From: an uncultured Clostridia bacterium
GTDB lineage: Bacteria > Bacillota > Clostridia > Christensenellales > Borkfalkiaceae
Assembly (NCBI GenBank): GCA_944341895.1
Contig: CALVMB010000009.1
Location: 1-37,971, forward strand
Direction of reading: 5' to 3'
DNA length: 37,971 nucleotides
Numbering within the stretch: position 1 is the first letter of the stretch; every line of letters starts with the position of its first letter. Below, one piece after another: positions 31,681 through 37,971 of this stretch. The notes below the pieces were generated by a model. The model did not search any database. It saw only the letters and a list, made by a program, of their open reading frames with translations, and was not told the DNA's origin. Position numbers and translations under genes: made by a program.

Positions 31681-33085
31681 CCGCTTTGACCTTGTCGTAA
31701 TACTTCCACATCTCCGCGGGCGAAAGCGAGCAAAGTTCCCGCCCGTCCGCGCGCGCCGCCGCCTCGACGGCGCAGAAGCGGCGCACGAATTTGTCGGTGG
31801 AAGCGCGCAGCGCCTCCTCGCAGTCCGCACCCGCCAGCCTGCCGACGTTCACCGCGGAAAAGAGCAGATCACCCGCCTCCTCGGCGATGTGCGCCTTGTC
31901 GCCCGCGGCGACGGCGGAAAGCAGTTCCTCCGTCTCCTCGGAAACGCGCTTTGCCGCTTCCTGCACGTTCGCAAAATCGTAGCCGACCTTGGCGGCGCGC
32001 TTGCCCACCTTCTGCGCGCGCAGAACGGCGGGAAAGGCTTTGGGCACGTCCCGCACCGAATCGGACGCCGTGCGGTGCCCCTTTTCGATGTCCTTGTTTT
32101 TGTCCCAGACGGACAGCGCGCCCTCCGCGTTCTCCGCCCTGTCCTTGCCGAAGATGTGCGAATGGCGGAAGATGAGTTTGCGGCAGACGTCCGAAAGCAC
32201 GTCCCCCGCGCCGAACGCACCCCGCTCCTCCGCGATGAGGGCGTGGAACGCGCCCTGCATGAGCACGTCGCCCGCTTCCTCGCAGATCTTGGAATCCTCG
32301 CCGCTGTCCACGGCGTCCACCAGTTCGTACGCTTCCTCGATCATGTTGCCGCGAATGCTCTCGTGCGTCTGGGCGCGGTCCCACGGACAGCCGTCCGGCG
32401 CGCGCAGGCGGCGCAGGACGTCCATGAGGTCGTCGAAGGAAAACCGCCGCTTTTCGAGCAGGGGGATCTCCCCCACCACGACGGCGCACGTCGAATCGTA
32501 GGCGGGCATGCGGTCGATCTCGAACACTTTGATCTTTTTCGCCTTGCCGCCGCACACAAAAAAGCCGTCCGCCTCGTCGCCGACGAGGTCGCACAGCCAT
32601 AACTTGACGTCGGACGCGACCAGTTCGCAGTCCACGTCGTACACCGCGAGCGGGAAGGCGGGACGCCCGCCCTCGGCGAGCGCATACGCCGAACGGGCAC
32701 AGCCGCCGCGGGCGAACACGCGCGCCGCGGCAAACGCCGCCGCGGATTTGGGAACGCCGTCCAGAATGCGCGCCGACTTGTCCCGACGGCACACGATCTG
32801 CGCCGAAACGTCCTCGGTGACGCTCCCGTCCACGCAGTAGACGACGTCGCCCTGTTTTGCCGCCGCTAAAACGGCGGCGGCAAGTTTTTTATTGAGGGTA
32901 TCGAAGTTGCGGCAGGACGCATACACGCCGTCCAGCGACTCGCAGGGCACGCCCAGCGCGAGCACGGCGGCGGCGGGCGGCGTCTGTTCGGTGCGCAGGA
33001 TCACCCTTGCGCCCGCGCACAGCGCGGCGCGCGCCTCTTCGGACAGCGAGCCTGCCCCGCATCCCAGACCGATGACTGTGATCAT
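31667..33085 (-). CDS. yabN: YabN-type tetrapyrrole-methylase-like / MazG nucleotide pyrophosphohydrolase
   Basis: Two-domain protein of 472 residues. The N-terminal ~225 residues are of the SAM-dependent tetrapyrrole-methylase fold (MITVIGLGCGAG...). The C-terminal MazG part contains LRAPDGCPWDRAQTHESIRGNMIEEAYELVDA and repeated EExxD metal-binding motifs (EEAGDVLMQ, EEAGDLLFSA). MazG hydrolyses (d)NTPs to monophosphates. This fusion and its place after spoVT and the spoVB-like gene match B. subtilis yabN. The ATG at 33085 has GGGAGGAG and lies 197 bases inside the 3' end of the upstream reading frame; the stop overlaps dusB by 14 bases. Confidence 0.92.
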   Translation of the reverse strand: MITVIGLGCGAGSLSEEARAALCAGARVILRTEQTPPAAAVLALGVPCESLDGVYASCRNFDTLNKKLAAAVLAAAKQGDVVYCVDGSVTEDVSAQIVCRRDKSARILDGVPKSAAAFAAARVFARGGCARSAYALAEGGRPAFPLAVYDVDCELVASDVKLWLCDLVGDEADGFFVCGGKAKKIKVFEIDRMPAYDSTCAVVVGEIPLLEKRRFSFDDLMDVLRRLRAPDGCPWDRAQTHESIRGNMIEEAYELVDAVDSGEDSKICEEAGDVLMQGAFHALIAEERGAFGAGDVLSDVCRKLIFRHSHIFGKDRAENAEGALSVWDKNKDIEKGHRTASDSVRDVPKAFPAVLRAQKVGKRAAKVGYDFANVQEAAKRVSEETEELLSAVAAGDKAHIAEEAGDLLFSAVNVGRLAGADCEEALRASTDKFVRRFCAVEAAARADGRELCSLSPAEMWKYYDKVKADERG

Positions 33086-34643
33086 GTTGTCTCCTCCCGA
33101 ACGGGCGCAACTCGCGGGTGCGGAAAGCGCCGAACAGGACGGCGTGCGCCAAATAGACCGCGGCGGCGACCGCGAGGATCGCAAGCACATGTTCGCCGCG
33201 CAGCGGGTATGCCGCCGCAACGCACGCCGCCGCCGCCAGCGAGAACTGTAAAAAGATCTGCGCCGCGCGCATGCGGTTGCTCCGTTCCCGAATACTATAC
33301 CCCAAATCCAGAAAAAGTGCAACCAAATAACAGGCGGTGGTGGCATATGCCGCGCCCAGCACCGAGACCTGCGGCAGGCGCAAAAGCAGCGATTCGAGGA
33401 TGAGTTTGACGCAGACGGCAAAGGTCATTGCCGCCGCGGCGCGCCGCGCCTTGCCCATGCCCGTCAGGCACGCCGCGAGCGTCTGCACCGAGGACAGAAG
33501 GACGGACGTGAGCGCCATTGCCCGCACGAGGCGGACGAGCACCGAAAATTCCGCGCCCGTGACCGAGCGGAACAAAAACCCTGCCACCTGCGCGGGATAC
33601 AGGAACAGGAACGCCGCCGCGGGCAGGGAAACGAACAGCGTGCATTTGAGGGCGAACAGCGTCTTTTTTTCCGCTTCCTCCCGCCGCCCCGCCGTGTGCA
33701 GCGCCGAGACGGCGGGAACGCTCGCCGCGGCGAGGCCGTAACAGACGGAGACGGGCAGGTTCACGAGAGTCGCCGCGCCGCCCGCATACAGGCCGTACAG
33801 CGCCGTGGCGCCCGCCGCATAGCCGCCGACCAGACGGACGATGAGGATGCTGTCCAGAATGCCCGAAAGGGGCAGGATCCCCGCCGCGATCGTGACGGGA
33901 ACGGTGATGCGCAGCAGCGCCGCCGCCTGCGGGCGGGCGGACGCGTCTCTATACAGCGGGACGCCCCCGCGCCATGCGCCCGACCGCCGTAAAGAACTTT
34001 GCCGCATCTGCCCCCAATGGACGTGTCCCGCCGCGCAGAAAAAGAGGAACACGGCGGCAGCCGCCTCGCTGAGCGTGACGGCGAGCAATGTGTAGGCGAC
34101 GGCGCGCGGCACGTTCCCCGCAAACATCCGCGCGAACAGCAGCCCGAGGCCGATTTTGACCGCCTGTTCGAGGATCTCGGACAGCGCGGTGGGCAGAAAG
34201 TTGCTCCGCCCCTGGAACCAGCCGCGGAAACAGGAGACGAGGGAAACGAGCAGCACGCCGGGCGCCAGCGCACGGTACGCCGCCGCGGCGGCGGGCTCGC
34301 CCTGCGCCGCGCTCATCAGCGGCGCGAGCAGGAACATCGCCGCACTGCCCAGCAGGCCGATGCCCGCAAACAACAGCAGAGCGCTGCGCAGAAAGCCTTC
34401 CGAACGCGCGCGGTTGCCCGCCGCTTCGGCGCGCGAGACGGCGCGCGCCAGTCCCGAGGGGATACCCGTCGCCGAGACCGTCAAAAGCAGGCAGTACAGC
34501 GGATAGGTCATCTGATAGACGCCCAGCCCCCTGCCGCCCAGCAGGTTCGCCAGCGGGATGCGGTAAAACGCGCCCATGATCTTGGCGGCGATGCCGCCCA
34601 GCGAGACGATCAGCGCCCCTTTGAGAAAAGTTTGCCGTTTCAT
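32889..34643 (-). CDS. SpoVB/YabM-family polysaccharide (lipid II-type) flippase
   Basis: MOP-superfamily membrane protein; the frame is 584 residues with about 14 hydrophobic segments. It begins KGALIVSLGGIAAKIMGAFYRIPLANLLGG, typical of the SpoVB/MurJ-like group that moves lipid-linked sugars across the membrane for cortex or wall synthesis. The last ~65 residues (after FRTRELRPFGRRQ) are Arg-rich and are shifted-frame translation of yabN, which starts 197 bases before this stop. Position between spoVT and yabN matches B. subtilis yabM. The Shine-Dalgarno is weak; no promoter is visible in the 176 bases upstream, so it was probably transcribed from spoVT, which is now split by the mobile element. 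Confidence 0.88.
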   Translation of the reverse strand: MKRQTFLKGALIVSLGGIAAKIMGAFYRIPLANLLGGRGLGVYQMTYPLYCLLLTVSATGIPSGLARAVSRAEAAGNRARSEGFLRSALLLFAGIGLLGSAAMFLLAPLMSAAQGEPAAAAAYRALAPGVLLVSLVSCFRGWFQGRSNFLPTALSEILEQAVKIGLGLLFARMFAGNVPRAVAYTLLAVTLSEAAAAVFLFFCAAGHVHWGQMRQSSLRRSGAWRGGVPLYRDASARPQAAALLRITVPVTIAAGILPLSGILDSILIVRLVGGYAAGATALYGLYAGGAATLVNLPVSVCYGLAAASVPAVSALHTAGRREEAEKKTLFALKCTLFVSLPAAAFLFLYPAQVAGFLFRSVTGAEFSVLVRLVRAMALTSVLLSSVQTLAACLTGMGKARRAAAAMTFAVCVKLILESLLLRLPQVSVLGAAYATTACYLVALFLDLGYSIRERSNRMRAAQIFLQFSLAAAACVAAAYPLRGEHVLAILAVAAAVYLAHAVLFGAFRTRELRPFGRRQHDHSHRSGMRGRLAVRRGARRAVRGRKGDPAHRTDAARRRRARAGRALRVAGRRVCVLPQLRYPQ

Positions 34644-34819: not shown

Positions 34820-35275
34820 TCAGTCGAACTGTCCCGCCAGGATCTCCGCCGTGAGGCGGCAGAGTTTGACCGCGCCGTTTTCCATGCGCGCGCCCTCTTC
34901 CGCCGAGAGCAGGGAGACTGCGCCCAGGCAGTCGCCGCCGCTGACGATGGGCACGATGATCTGCGCCGTGATGGTGCCCGCGCCGTCCTCGGTGAGCGGC
35001 ACGATGTCGCCCCCTTCGGCGAGGTTGGCGATGTAACTGCGCCGTTCCTGCATGATCTTTTCCAACTGCCGCGAGACCTGCTTTTTGGCATAGTCCTTGC
35101 GGCCGTCCCCCGTCGCGTACAGGATCTCGTCCGTATCGCAGATGACCGCGAGATACCCGCTCAGGTCGTTGAGCGATTTCGCCGTGCCTTCCGAAAACTT
35201 TTCCAGCGTGGCGATGGGCGAATATTTTTTGAGCATGAGTTCGTCGCGGTCGGTAAAGATCTCGAGCGGGTCGCC
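34820..35275 (-). pseudogene. spoVT: 3' part of spoVT, split by the inserted element
   Basis: The 151 residues from GDPLEIFTDRDELMLKKYSPI to the stop correspond to SpoVT from about residue 31 to its end: the last strand of the AbrB-like DNA-binding domain plus the whole C-terminal GAF domain (LAVICDTDEILYATG, QIIVPIVSGGDCLGAVSLLS). SpoVT is the forespore transcription regulator of about 178 residues. The missing N-terminal ~30 residues (start, swapped-hairpin DNA-binding part) are replaced in frame by a serine recombinase. The neighbours spoVB/yabM and yabN confirm the locus. In this state the fragment has no start of its own; it could be restored only by excision. Base composition changes at its 5' edge. 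Confidence 0.88.
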
Positions 35276-36973
35276 GTCACTGATAACACGGACACTGTAA
35301 ACCTTATCTCTCTGATTTTTCGTCTTCAAGGTAAGGGTGACTTGCTTTACAGTGCCCCCTTTAAAATTTACGACGCCCTCTTTCGTATTCAGGTTCAAAA
35401 GCGCATCGATATCCGCTTTGAGGTGTACGTCGATGTGATCCTCATACACATAGATCTTGTCGATGAGAAGGCTCAGATCTTCCCTGTCAAGGCTCTCTTT
35501 TTTCAAAATGCGGTCAAACACTTCAATAGCCGTCGCCGCCGTGCGGTTCGCCTCAATGACCGCGTTGCGCTTGTTGGCAACCAACTCAAGCTGATTCTGC
35601 AAACCCAATATATAGTTCGATGTTTCTTCGATCAGTTGGTCGTAGGCGTCCGCGACGATCTTCGCCTGATCGGGATTTTTGATCGTATCGCGCGCCTTCT
35701 GCCGCACATACTCGCGCACCTCTTCGTTCGCTCTTTCGATTTGTATTCGGAGCATTTCCGCCGTATCGGTGTTGCCCTGAATGTCCGACGCTTCCCCTTT
35801 CAAAATCACGTCCAGCCTGTCGAACATATCGCTTGCATTTTCGCGCACGCGCAGCAAATACCTCTTCAATAAAGAGTCCAGAAAATCGACGCGCACATGG
35901 TGCGACGTACAACCCTTTTTGCCTCGTACGTGGTATTCGCCGCATACATAAGCGGGCGCGAGATCAGGGCGGCTCATCGAGAACATCGGGGAACCGCAGT
36001 CGCCGCAGACAAGAAAACCCGAATACACGTTGGGGTATTTTTTTACGCCGCGGTAATTCTCCTTTGAGCGGAGCTTAATCTGCTCCTGCACCGTGGCGAA
36101 GGTACGGTAATCGACGATGGGCGGGTGATTGTTCTCGAACACGATATGCTCGCTTTTATCCAGTACCACGTCCGAGCCATTGATCTTCCGCCGCTTATAC
36201 TTGTGCTGGCGCAGCGTGCCGATGTAAAAATCGTTGGTCAGTATGCCGCTGACCGACTGAATACTCCACTTGTTTTTCGTATTGTAGCGGCACTCCTCGC
36301 CCGCCTCCTCTTTGCGACTTTTGAAAACGGTGCGCGGCGTGGGGATATGCTTTTCGGTGAGATACCCCGCTATCTTTTTATATCCCCATCCCTGCTTGTA
36401 CAGTTCAAAGATTTCCCGCACAACCTCCGCCGATGGCTCGTCGATCTCGAAGGTCATCTTCTTCGAATTTGTAATGACGTACCCGTAGGGCACGGCACAG
36501 ATCCAGCGGCCGCTGTTCTGTCTGTTCGAAATCACGCTCTTGACCTTTTTGGAGGCGTCCGTGACGGGCATCTCGTTGATGAGGAAGCGGAACTGTATGC
36601 TCATCCAGTCGTCATACGTCGGGTAGTCGATCGTGTCGCCGATGCTGATGATGCGCACGCCCGCGTCGCGCAAGTCCTCCAGCTCCACGAGCCCCTTGCT
36701 GTTGCGGCGCGCGAAACGGCTGAAATCCTTCACGATGAGAATGTCGTATTCGCCGCTCATCAGCCCTTTGCGCATTTTCTGGTATCCCTCGCGCTGCTCA
36801 AAAGTGTAGCCACTGCGGTCCCTGTCCTCGAAAAAGGTCAGCTTTGCGCCCGGGAAATTTTTGGCGACGTATTCGGTAATGATAAGCTTTTGGTTTTCAA
36901 TCGACGTATTGTCGCGGTCGAGTTCTTCATCGACAGAAATACGGGTATACCCCGCAAGCGATATAGCCGGCAT
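34820..36973 (-). CDS. Large serine recombinase, fused in frame to the SpoVT C-terminal part
   Basis: 717 residues. Residues 1 to ~150 are the resolvase catalytic domain with YTRIS (nucleophile Ser13), EDRDRSGYTFEQREGYQKM and ILIVKDFSRFARR. Then come the recombinase domain (IAGYLTEKHIPTPR; WSIQSVSGILTNDFYIG), a zinc ribbon beginning CGDCGS, a coiled coil (~390-500), and a C-terminal beta part to about residue 565. Residues 567-717 are SpoVT sequence. Such enzymes integrate and excise mobile elements at short att sites. Start: ATG 36973, seven bases after GGAG; a TTG two codons earlier has no usable site. The gene body is AT-richer than the host. The chimera exists only in the integrated state; on a circular form the gene would end elsewhere. 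Confidence 0.92.
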   Translation of the reverse strand: MPAISLAGYTRISVDEELDRDNTSIENQKLIITEYVAKNFPGAKLTFFEDRDRSGYTFEQREGYQKMRKGLMSGEYDILIVKDFSRFARRNSKGLVELEDLRDAGVRIISIGDTIDYPTYDDWMSIQFRFLINEMPVTDASKKVKSVISNRQNSGRWICAVPYGYVITNSKKMTFEIDEPSAEVVREIFELYKQGWGYKKIAGYLTEKHIPTPRTVFKSRKEEAGEECRYNTKNKWSIQSVSGILTNDFYIGTLRQHKYKRRKINGSDVVLDKSEHIVFENNHPPIVDYRTFATVQEQIKLRSKENYRGVKKYPNVYSGFLVCGDCGSPMFSMSRPDLAPAYVCGEYHVRGKKGCTSHHVRVDFLDSLLKRYLLRVRENASDMFDRLDVILKGEASDIQGNTDTAEMLRIQIERANEEVREYVRQKARDTIKNPDQAKIVADAYDQLIEETSNYILGLQNQLELVANKRNAVIEANRTAATAIEVFDRILKKESLDREDLSLLIDKIYVYEDHIDVHLKADIDALLNLNTKEGVVNFKGGTVKQVTLTLKTKNQRDKVYSVRVISDGDPLEIFTDRDELMLKKYSPIATLEKFSEGTAKSLNDLSGYLAVICDTDEILYATGDGRKDYAKKQVSRQLEKIMQERRSYIANLAEGGDIVPLTEDGAGTITAQIIVPIVSGGDCLGAVSLLSAEEGARMENGAVKLCRLTAEILAGQFD
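35270..35300. other. Junction (att site) of the element with spoVT
   Basis: Within these bases the minus-strand reading passes from recombinase (KVYSVRV) to SpoVT (GDPLEIF); the ISD between could belong to either. Composition changes at the same place, from GC-rich codons (host) to AT-rich ones. The exact two-base crossover of a serine recombinase cannot be read from one end alone. Confidence 0.7.
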
Positions 36974-37020
36974 AATCAATCTCCAATATTATCTAATAGT
37001 TATATTTATTTTCAATTTAT

Positions 37021-37049
37021 ATTGTAACATAGGTTTTATAAAATTGCAA
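37021..37049 (-). promoter_or_regulatory. Recombinase promoter
   Basis: On the minus strand TTGCAA (37049-37044), 17 bases, TACAAT (37026-37021) preceded by TGT. The leader is about 40 AT-rich bases. It looks like an ordinary vegetative promoter; I see no clear sigma-E or sigma-K element. Confidence 0.75.
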
Positions 37050-37079
37050 GGGTTTTCAGAAAAGCAGCTTTTGTTCAAA

Positions 37080-37106
37080 GGCGGCTGTCAAAATCTGACA
37101 GCCGCC
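37080..37106 (-). terminator. Terminator upstream of the recombinase gene
   Basis: GGCGGCTGTCA / TGACAGCCGCC with a five-base loop, followed on the minus strand by TTTG. It lies 23 bases after the stop of the small gene at 37130 and insulates the recombinase promoter. Confidence 0.75.
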
Positions 37107-37129
37107 CGCTTTACTATTTCTTCTGAAAA

Positions 37130-37354
37130 TTATAATTTCCCCGCTAGGCTCTTGCGATAATTTTTACTGACGAGCGCCGCCGTTAATTCTTCCAAATTCC
37201 CCATTCCCGAACGGAACACGACGGGTCTGTATCTCTTTTCTTTGAATTCTCTGCACAAATTTTTTAATTGCAAATTTATTCGCTCGTCATGCGACTCGGC
37301 TTTCGTCAGCCAAATTTCCGCAAGTTTGCTGTTTTCTTTTACAATAATTTCCAT
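37130..37354 (-). CDS. Small hypothetical protein of the mobile element
   Basis: 74 residues, not recognised. It is charged and helical in the first half (KENSKLAEIWLTKAESHDERINLQLKNL), followed by CREFKEKRYRPVVFRSGMGNLEELTAALVSKN. No membrane segment or cysteine motif is seen. The ATG at 37354 has AGGGGG five bases upstream. It sits 62 bases after the relaxase-like gene, on the same strand and probably in the same transcript, ahead of a terminator. Small genes in this position in mobilisable elements are often accessory to transfer or excision, but this is context only. Confidence 0.7.
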   Translation of the reverse strand: MEIIVKENSKLAEIWLTKAESHDERINLQLKNLCREFKEKRYRPVVFRSGMGNLEELTAALVSKNYRKSLAGKL

Positions 37355-37416
37355 CCAAGCCCCCTTTTTGCTACATATCTATATCTTTCCAAATTTAAAT
37401 ACATTATACCCCCTAC

Positions 37417-37971
37417 TTATCCTTTTTCAAAGTTCCAGCGGCTATTCATTCTCTCTTGGCCTTCATTTTGTTCGCGTTCGGCTTTCATCTCGTCCTCGAT
37501 CTCTCTCAAACGATTGGTATAGTCCCTGCTCAAATACTCGCTTTCCTCTCCGAAAGAAGAAAGAAAGCCGCCTATGAGTTTTCCCACCTTATAATTCGAG
37601 ATGGCGAGTTTTCGTTTCAGGCGATTGTCGTTGACCTTGTATGTTCGTTTCCGCTCATAGATTTCGGGCTTGATATTCTTTACCGCACGCAACACGATGT
37701 TGCCTTGCCGCCGTTTGTAGTCTTCTTCCAGTTCCTGTATGAGCGTTATATTCTGCGGATCGATAGCGTAATGGTTGCCGCTCTTTGTCGGTTCGCAAAG
37801 TTCGTCTATCTTACGCCGCAAACCCGAAAGCCGCTCATAAAATTTTCTATCCGCTTTCCTTGCCCGTATATCATAGAGCAACAGTTTGTTTACCGTTTTA
37901 TCGATCTGCTCCCGATACGGCAACATATCCTTTTTACTATAGAAAAAACTTGCGTCCTTCGGTATCGCTTT
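37417..37971 (-). CDS. Probable relaxase (MobP3-like), C-terminal part, cut by window edge
   Basis: The frame is open to the window edge; 184 residues are visible. An internal ATG at 37926 has AAAGGAT upstream, but in-frame coding-looking sequence continues before it, so the protein is most likely longer. Segments such as KLLLYDIRARKADRKFYERLSGLRR-type, KIDELCEPTKSGNHYAIDP, LEEDYKRRQGNIVLRAV and YLSRDYTNRLREIEDE resemble, from memory, the C-terminal region of MobP3-family relaxases of Firmicute mobilisable elements. The catalytic Tyr/His part would lie outside. If so, the element can be mobilised by conjugation. Confidence 0.55.
   Translation of the reverse strand, partial: KAIPKDASFFYSKKDMLPYREQIDKTVNKLLLYDIRARKADRKFYERLSGLRRKIDELCEPTKSGNHYAIDPQNITLIQELEEDYKRRQGNIVLRAVKNIKPEIYERKRTYKVNDNRLKRKLAISNYKVGKLIGGFLSSFGEESEYLSRDYTNRLREIEDEMKAEREQNEGQERMNSRWNFEKG

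Follow-up and report, generated by a model that had tools for sequence, protein, structure and literature searches.

In this work we have used computational approaches to analyse the right-hand end of a 37,971-bp stretch of DNA from an uncultured Clostridia bacterium (the window), where the gene of a large serine recombinase runs into the 3' part of the sporulation gene spoVT. The window is the entire contig C9 of a draft assembly (genome G000; 1.47 Mb, 63 contigs, 81.7% complete) and, since it corresponds exactly to this contig, it cannot be extended rightward. A single open reading frame (ORF) of 719 residues carries the Pfam domains Resolvase, Recombinase and Zn_ribbon_recom, the three by which large serine recombinases are recognized, followed by SpoVT_C at residues 592-717. 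The recombinase is joined, without a stop, to SpoVT residues 31-181, that is, to GDP and the 148 residues after it. A sequence-only reading of the window had claimed that a recombinase-bearing, AT-rich element interrupts spoVT and leaves its last 151 codons beside spoVB- and yabN-like genes, and our analysis agrees with it on all these points. The downstream host genes are spoVB-like and yabN-like, their products matching the Pfam families Polysacc_synt/MatE and MazG, respectively, and the G+C content is 48.1% on the element side versus 62.3% in the remainder of the contig.

The other half of the gene, which had been predicted together with a direct repeat, is present on contig C17 of the same genome. 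A tblastn search of G000 with SpoVT, at E-values up to 10, gave two places only: query residues 27-166 match the 3' part on C9, and residues 1-36 match C17:9091-9198, minus strand. The 5' part, consisting of codons 1-33 with a sigma-G-like promoter, extends from 9198 down to 9100 on the minus strand of C17 and is followed by other DNA; the frame reads MKATGIVRRIDELGRVVIPKEIRRTLRIKDGDP and afterwards departs from SpoVT. An exact 12-bp core, GACGGCGACCCG, is common to C17 9100-9111 and C9 35267-35278, at the codons for D-G-D-P, and joining the halves in silico at this core gives RRTLRIKDGDPLEIFTDRDEL, in frame, which is the SpoVT reading of relatives. Since the halves share the exact core, and the same junction is seen in independent genomes, the split is not a product of chance. 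An intact spoVT elsewhere, which by the sequence-only reading would have refuted the split, was not found by tblastn in this 81.7% complete genome. The expectation that mfd would precede the 5' half did not hold: mfd was not found there, and the upstream ORF gave one Pfam match only, below the cut-off.

The element is at least 11,792 bp long, with 9,099 bp on C17 and 2,693 bp on C9, the middle between the contigs not being covered. Its C17 side codes for an AlbA/Schlafen-type ATPase with a helix-turn-helix and for the beginning of a protein that exceeds 2,278 residues and contains subtilase and LRR_5 repeats. The features on C9 are collected in Table 1.

Table 1. Features of the interrupted spoVT locus, in positions of the window (contig C9)
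Feature	Position	Strand	Remarks
Recombinase-SpoVT fusion ORF	34820..36979	-	single open frame, 719 aa
spoVT 3' part, codons 34-181 and stop	34820..35266	-	in-frame C-terminus of the recombinase; Pfam SpoVT_C
attR core GACGGCGACCCG	35267..35278	-	identical to the attL core at C17:9100-9111
GTTATCAGT, left arm of the predicted attP palindrome	35279..35287	-	within the recombinase frame
Large serine recombinase, 567 codons up to the core	35279..36979	-	no stop ahead of spoVT
Sigma-A-like recombinase promoter TTGCAA-N17-TACAAT	37021..37049	-	sequence and scan of relatives
Element ORF, 74 aa	37130..37354	-	without Pfam match; counterpart in G001
Element ORF end, at least 184 aa, running off the contig	37417..37971	-	without Pfam match; counterpart is a 391-aa ORF in G001
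Host flank: spoVB-like (Polysacc_synt/MatE) gene	32889..34643	-	Pfam

The attachment site and the C-terminus of the recombinase

Both ends of the element were available for 17 genomes, and in 16 of them the attachment (att) sites could be located. In these 16 the predicted attP forms an imperfect palindrome with GA at its centre and 12-17 of 19 arm positions paired, whereas random sequence reaches 12 arm positions in 0.45% of 2000 trials. The predicted attB, as obtained by joining the halves in silico, restores the frame and reads as SpoVT in 16 of the 17 genomes. The common part of attL and attR is GG.GA[CT]CC; in several pairs a different wobble base in the proline codon limits the exactly matching run to 0-3 bases as counted.

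The predicted attP is located within the recombinase coding frame, and integration would therefore exchange C-termini: the recombinase gives up its own tail for the SpoVT_C domain, and the N-terminal part of SpoVT gains the tail. Beyond attL the frame continues at 39 loci, 31 of which add 24-35 residues, many of the recurring type [FY]C.AM..LA.R; the other tails have 44-72 residues in the Borkfalkia family, 50 in G322 and only 7 in the inverted case. When 16 chosen pairs of tails were compared position by position, the ratio of nonsynonymous to synonymous differences (pN/pS) was 0.04-0.39 in 10 pairs, higher in L156/L162 (0.54), L154/L155 (0.66) and L172/L176 (0.92), 0.65 and 0.73 where one partner was L036, which is one codon shorter, and undefined in L054/L061. 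From the low ratios, the tail beyond attL looks coding. Most simply, it looks like the native C-terminus of the recombinase as encoded in the circular form of the element, and the two are naturally joined in two sequences, G694 and G684, the latter with a stop in the tail.

Occurrence in Clostridia and states of the element

The intact spoVT that had been expected in related genomes is there: among 40 genomes of the genus, 36 have it in full length, one has it truncated by the end of a contig, one has none, and in G000 and G001 it is split. One genome, G005, has two full-length spoVT genes (L041, L042) on different contigs, which are paralogues or come from mixed strains. In a survey of the family (301 genomes, 253 with a match) the gene is split in G000 and G001 among the matches listed, and a closer check of eight suspects added G255, in which both halves lie on one contig and the same strand, 30.5 kb apart, giving at least 3/301. 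With the fusion as query, eight genomes of the order besides G000 (396 genomes) match end to end, at 53-56% identity and in frames of 722-748 codons; the next-best recombinases are about 31% identical and end ahead of SpoVT. None of these eight has an intact spoVT. In six, a 5' half that stops at the same codon was found apart from the fusion, and four of these (G527, G612, G636 and G334) carry it on the contig and strand of the fusion. No such half was found in G447 or G452; G447 gave a weak match of 22 residues to the beginning of SpoVT (E 0.08), which was not counted. The class (391 genomes) contributed five more end-to-end fusions (G786, G818, G861, G937 and G1108), and a relative in G1120 that has a stop and ends before SpoVT.

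A search of GTDB genomes confirmed 359 recombinase relatives, of which the best 80 were analysed. Seventy-three of the 80 read into SpoVT, four of them being cut by the contig end, and seven are not fused (L073, L074, L097, L108, L125, L141 and L142). The SpoVT N-terminus was searched in the genomes of 42 of the 80, of which 35 are fused. No intact spoVT was found in any of the 35, and 33 have a separate 5' half (the exceptions are G677 and G689), with the junction itself read in 25 and the other eight judged from the end of the match. Among the 42, only G666, G684 and G687 have an intact spoVT, and the recombinase of each is unfused. In 17 of the 35 fused genomes a single contig carries both halves, arranged in order on the same strand with 6.9 to 78 kb between them; on single contigs of two genomes they are found on opposite strands (G673:C2) or in reverse order (G698:C23). 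The carriers include Ruminococcus bicirculans 80/3 (on chromosome II, a complete sequence), R. flavefaciens ATCC 19208 and 007c, Anaerotruncus massiliensis AT3, Agathobaculum butyriciproducens DSM 100391 and Pseudoflavonifractor sp. MSJ-30. Presence is mosaic among 60 genomes of the genus to which R. flavefaciens ATCC 19208 belongs: 30 genomes have the intact gene only, 18 the 3' part without an intact gene (12 of them in frames of length at least 725), one has both and 11 gave no match, and two intact genomes (G728, G756) also carry extra spoVT 5' pieces. Six loci with relatives of the recombinase were found in IMG/VR; three of the four examined read into SpoVT_C and one ends at the contig edge. 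As judged from these assemblies, the same split at the same spoVT codon is recurrent across Clostridia.

Between G000 and G001 the identity changes in steps at both att sites, being 91.6% in the recombinase and 89.8% in the AlbA gene of the element, and 80.7% in the spoVT 3' part, 76.5% in the 5' part with its promoter and 66% in the spoVB region of the host; the element has therefore moved independently of host DNA. Over 77 sequences, recombinase and SpoVT_C identities are correlated (Mantel r 0.67, reached by 0 of 2000 permutations). G712 has an intact spoVT on a 294-kb contig (the empty allele), and for the integrated allele a contig that starts in the 5' half and enters the element (95 bp identical to the intact gene) and one that leaves the element into the 3' half (158 bp identical). 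In G694, in addition to attL, a recombinase at a contig end crosses the core into the attL-side tail (50/51 bases the same), as expected of a circle or a tandem copy. A search of viral contigs with the attP pattern of the window's element, aimed at an excised or circular form, gave 0 matches, and for G000 itself neither a circle nor a joined gene was seen. In G667 (L185, G667:C11:52001-72000) the element is inverted, and the recombinase runs into the antisense of the spoVT 5' half.

G021, G099 and G248 retain a left end of the element beside an intact spoVT that has a second 5' end, and no recombinase was found in the stretches read. This second end is a copy of the promoter and codons 1-33, of 212 bp at 98.1% identity in G021 and 204 bp at 99.0% in G248, and divergent in G099. 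As the second ends restore spoVT in these genomes, the sequences suggest selection for an intact gene when the element has lost the ability to leave. A copy of the spoVT 5' end is also present in G684 (207 bp, 96.6%), which keeps a recombinase. The copies L036 (G021), L047/L048 (G248) and L177-L179 (G684) complete spoVT next to a left end of the element and are of near-constant size, in two or more bacterial families. Two other extra 5' pieces were set aside, one in G008, which is a contig-end overlap, and one in G026 (L039, G026:C84), a partial copy of 48 codons that has no att core and runs into other DNA, the intact gene lying elsewhere.

A proposed sporulation-timed excision and its alternatives

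What happens to the split gene when the cell sporulates? In Clostridioides difficile, spoVT depends on sigma-F and sigma-G and a spoVT mutant forms zero heat-resistant spores; SpoVT acts in the forespore, as the sequence-only reading had stated, and is a forespore regulator there and in Bacillus subtilis (PMC3789822). The 5' half in G000 has the sigma-G-like promoter GAATA-N17-CATACTC, which beats all 50 shuffles, and 19 of the 39 attL loci have one scoring at least 10/12, many of those in Ruminococcus being no better than shuffles. Ahead of the recombinase, a sigma-A-like promoter scores at least 10/12 at 33 of 77 loci (6.2 expected); the copy in G001 has 9/12 consensus bases and alone is no better than shuffles. 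Such promoters fit published cases in which the recombinase is not the timer, SprA (PMC4191935) and CD1231 (PMC5025042). In 30 genomes tested, a sigma-G-like gene of at least 347 bits was found in 29 and a small acid-soluble spore protein (SASP) in 26, and among 14 controls SASP was found only in B. subtilis.

We propose that the locus holds a site-specific integrative element of a large serine recombinase clade, whose attB would be spoVT around codons 30-34. Integration would cut the gene after GDP, so that the 5' half, still behind its forespore-type promoter, continues in frame into a short tail encoded by the element, and the 3' half becomes the recombinase C-terminus; exact recombination between attL and attR would rejoin spoVT precisely. 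Excision would occur at sporulation and, given that the forespore is where SpoVT works, either there or before septation. The circle may be carried in the spore or lost, and if carried, its recombinase would regain its own tail across attP and could re-integrate the element after germination. As a whole, excision timed to sporulation with re-integration after germination is the best explanation we have, with a probability of roughly 0.6. Its parts are not equally firm. At the level of sequence the split gene, the site specificity and the mobility of the element are established, and rejoining of spoVT by excision is likely; that excision is timed to sporulation in the forespore lineage, that the element re-integrates, and how direction is set, we infer.

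Several observations weigh against this proposal. Excision has been observed in no culture, and G712 and G694 may be strain mixtures or, in the latter, a tandem copy. G684 keeps the recombinase beside an intact spoVT. Several insertions look recent, with recombinases 97-99% identical and SpoVT_C parts 68-78%; as many pairs show recent transfer, we do not take the conserved halves as proof of function. Only 3 of the 30 sigma-G matches exceed the curated cut-off (457), the family also matches in 7 of the 14 control genomes at the E-value used, G001 is without a strong match (187 bits), and SASP was not found in G000, G001, G255 and G664 among the 30. Finally, the first genes past attL at the 39 loci (stretches of at most 2.6 kb, often about 1.4 kb) contain no common candidate for a directionality factor. 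An AlbA-type ATPase is among these first genes on the same strand in G000, G001, G021 and L161 and on the opposite strand in L163, and gave no match in the attL stretches of the other 34 loci.

A more specific form of the proposal, which we regard as doubtful, is a heritable gene switch timed to the forespore, in which the recombinase rewrites itself by the swap of its C-terminus. The integrating form, made by the circle, would be a recombinase ending in its native tail of some 24-72 residues; the excising form, made by the integrated element, would be a recombinase joined to the SpoVT sensor domain. The chimera of SpoVT(1-33) and the tail would trigger excision just when SpoVT is needed and disappear once spoVT is rejoined, and the circle would ride in the spore and re-integrate on germination.

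The element may instead be a passenger that inactivates SpoVT in hosts which no longer make or need mature spores, spread by lateral transfer, its site in spoVT being an accident of conserved sequence. The recent transfers, the mosaic presence in the genus of R. flavefaciens ATCC 19208 (30/60 intact only, 18/60 with the 3' part and no intact gene) and the failure to find SASP in three Borkfalkia-family carriers agree with this possibility, which we consider unlikely although worth serious attention, given that sigma-G-like genes and SASP are so frequent in the genomes tested, that both halves are open in most carriers and that second 5' ends restore spoVT in G021 and G248, where the recombinase was not found. 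Excision could also be reversible without being developmental, occurring occasionally in growing cells, so that only element-free cells complete spores and split and intact lineages coexist. We think this improbable: both alleles of G712, the attP-type junction of G694, the 36/40 intact genes of the genus and the sigma-A-like recombinase promoters are all compatible with it, but the host spoVT promoter is still attached to the left end of the integrated element, and published relatives excise on a sporulation cue via a separate factor (PMC4191935, PMC5025042).

The sequence-only reading had taken a fusion conserved in many genomes as an argument against an interrupted gene. The fusion is indeed found in many genomes, but its cause is insertion at the same codon, which mostly leaves the 5' half in place. 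It is very improbable that the fusion is a stable new protein, functional in itself, and the 5' fragment debris; the frame is open in 73 of the best 80 relatives (four cut by the contig end), as such a protein would have it, but the complementary half is kept in 33/35 fused genomes, the three genomes with intact spoVT all have an unfused recombinase, and the tail beyond attL also looks coding by its pN/pS (10/16 pairs). A wrong joining of recombinase and spoVT during assembly has a negligible chance. G000 is a draft in which the element reaches the ends of C9 and C17; the same junctions, however, appear in independent assemblies, among them the complete chromosome II of R. bicirculans 80/3 and G334 (4.2 Mb in 3 contigs).

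Known elements and cargo

The element resembles skin, which splits sigK in B. subtilis and, as skinCd, in C. difficile: a large serine recombinase element interrupts a sporulation gene, and precise excision rejoins it. It shares with skin a sporulation gene split at a short direct repeat, a recombinase of its own and a frame that can be restored in silico. It differs in that sigK acts in the mother cell and spoVT in the forespore, and in that the recombinase is here fused to the host gene product, with attP in its own frame. In skinCd, expression of the recombinase is constitutive, and the timing depends on a small factor (PMC5025042). In B. subtilis, SprA with the 58-residue factor SprB rejoins spsM, split by SP-beta, during sporulation; SP-beta leaves the mother-cell genome only and stays in the spore genome (PMC4191935). 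Unlike SP-beta, the spoVT element splits a forespore gene, and no SprB-like gene was identified.

The genes spoVFB and yabG belong to the mother cell. They are interrupted by vfbin and, in Clostridium botulinum, by yin, as the mother-cell gene gerE is by gin in Bacillus cereus; gin is non-phage in content, with an inverted repeat at the att site (PMC5595907, PMC10747680). None of these elements sits in spoVT, and spoVR, which had been named earlier as another interrupted gene, does not occur as a word in PMC5595907, the one paper searched for it. In the open literature, by title or beginning of the abstract, we found no report of an element in spoVT. A parallel for the attachment site is mycobacteriophage BPs, whose attP lies inside a coding sequence and whose integration changes a protein C-terminus (PMC4557955); in BPs the affected gene is the repressor, whereas here it is the recombinase itself, and the new C-terminus is a host sporulation domain. 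By its sequence, then, the spoVT element would work like skin but with a different target cell, attP position and recombinase C-terminus. The spoVT target lacks the mother-cell trait of sigK, spsM and gerE. As the mother cell dies, excision from its genes costs the lineage nothing; excision from spoVT would alter the DNA inherited by the spore, which leaves three fates for the element: loss, carriage as a circle or re-insertion.

The element is present in cultured, completely sequenced gut Clostridia. Large serine recombinases are genome-engineering tools, and the exchange of C-termini between recombinase and host protein may be a built-in direction switch for them. The cargo differs between elements and, in those inspected, often concerns anti-phage defence, which would tie defence islands to spore development. 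PADLOC, run on 20 proteins of four elements, found SspA, SspB, SspC, PbeA, PbeC and a PDC-S06/PrrC-like protein in that of G255, type I restriction and an Orf5/HEC-06-type protein in G663, Cas1, Cas3, Cas4 and Cas5 of type I-C kind in G667, and type III restriction in G099. No phage structural genes were found among the few element proteins scanned. The element of G636 codes, by Pfam, for a Mob_Pre relaxase. A 323-residue fragment at L037:1-972 (G001:C15), without Pfam match and matching only PHROG 8308 (function unknown), contains the motif NGCDYDSDTML, which we take to be reminiscent of polymerase-like catalytic motifs. In G663 (L189:14534-15574) and G703 (L192:13181-14290), a RhuM-family gene lies directly ahead of the recombinase.

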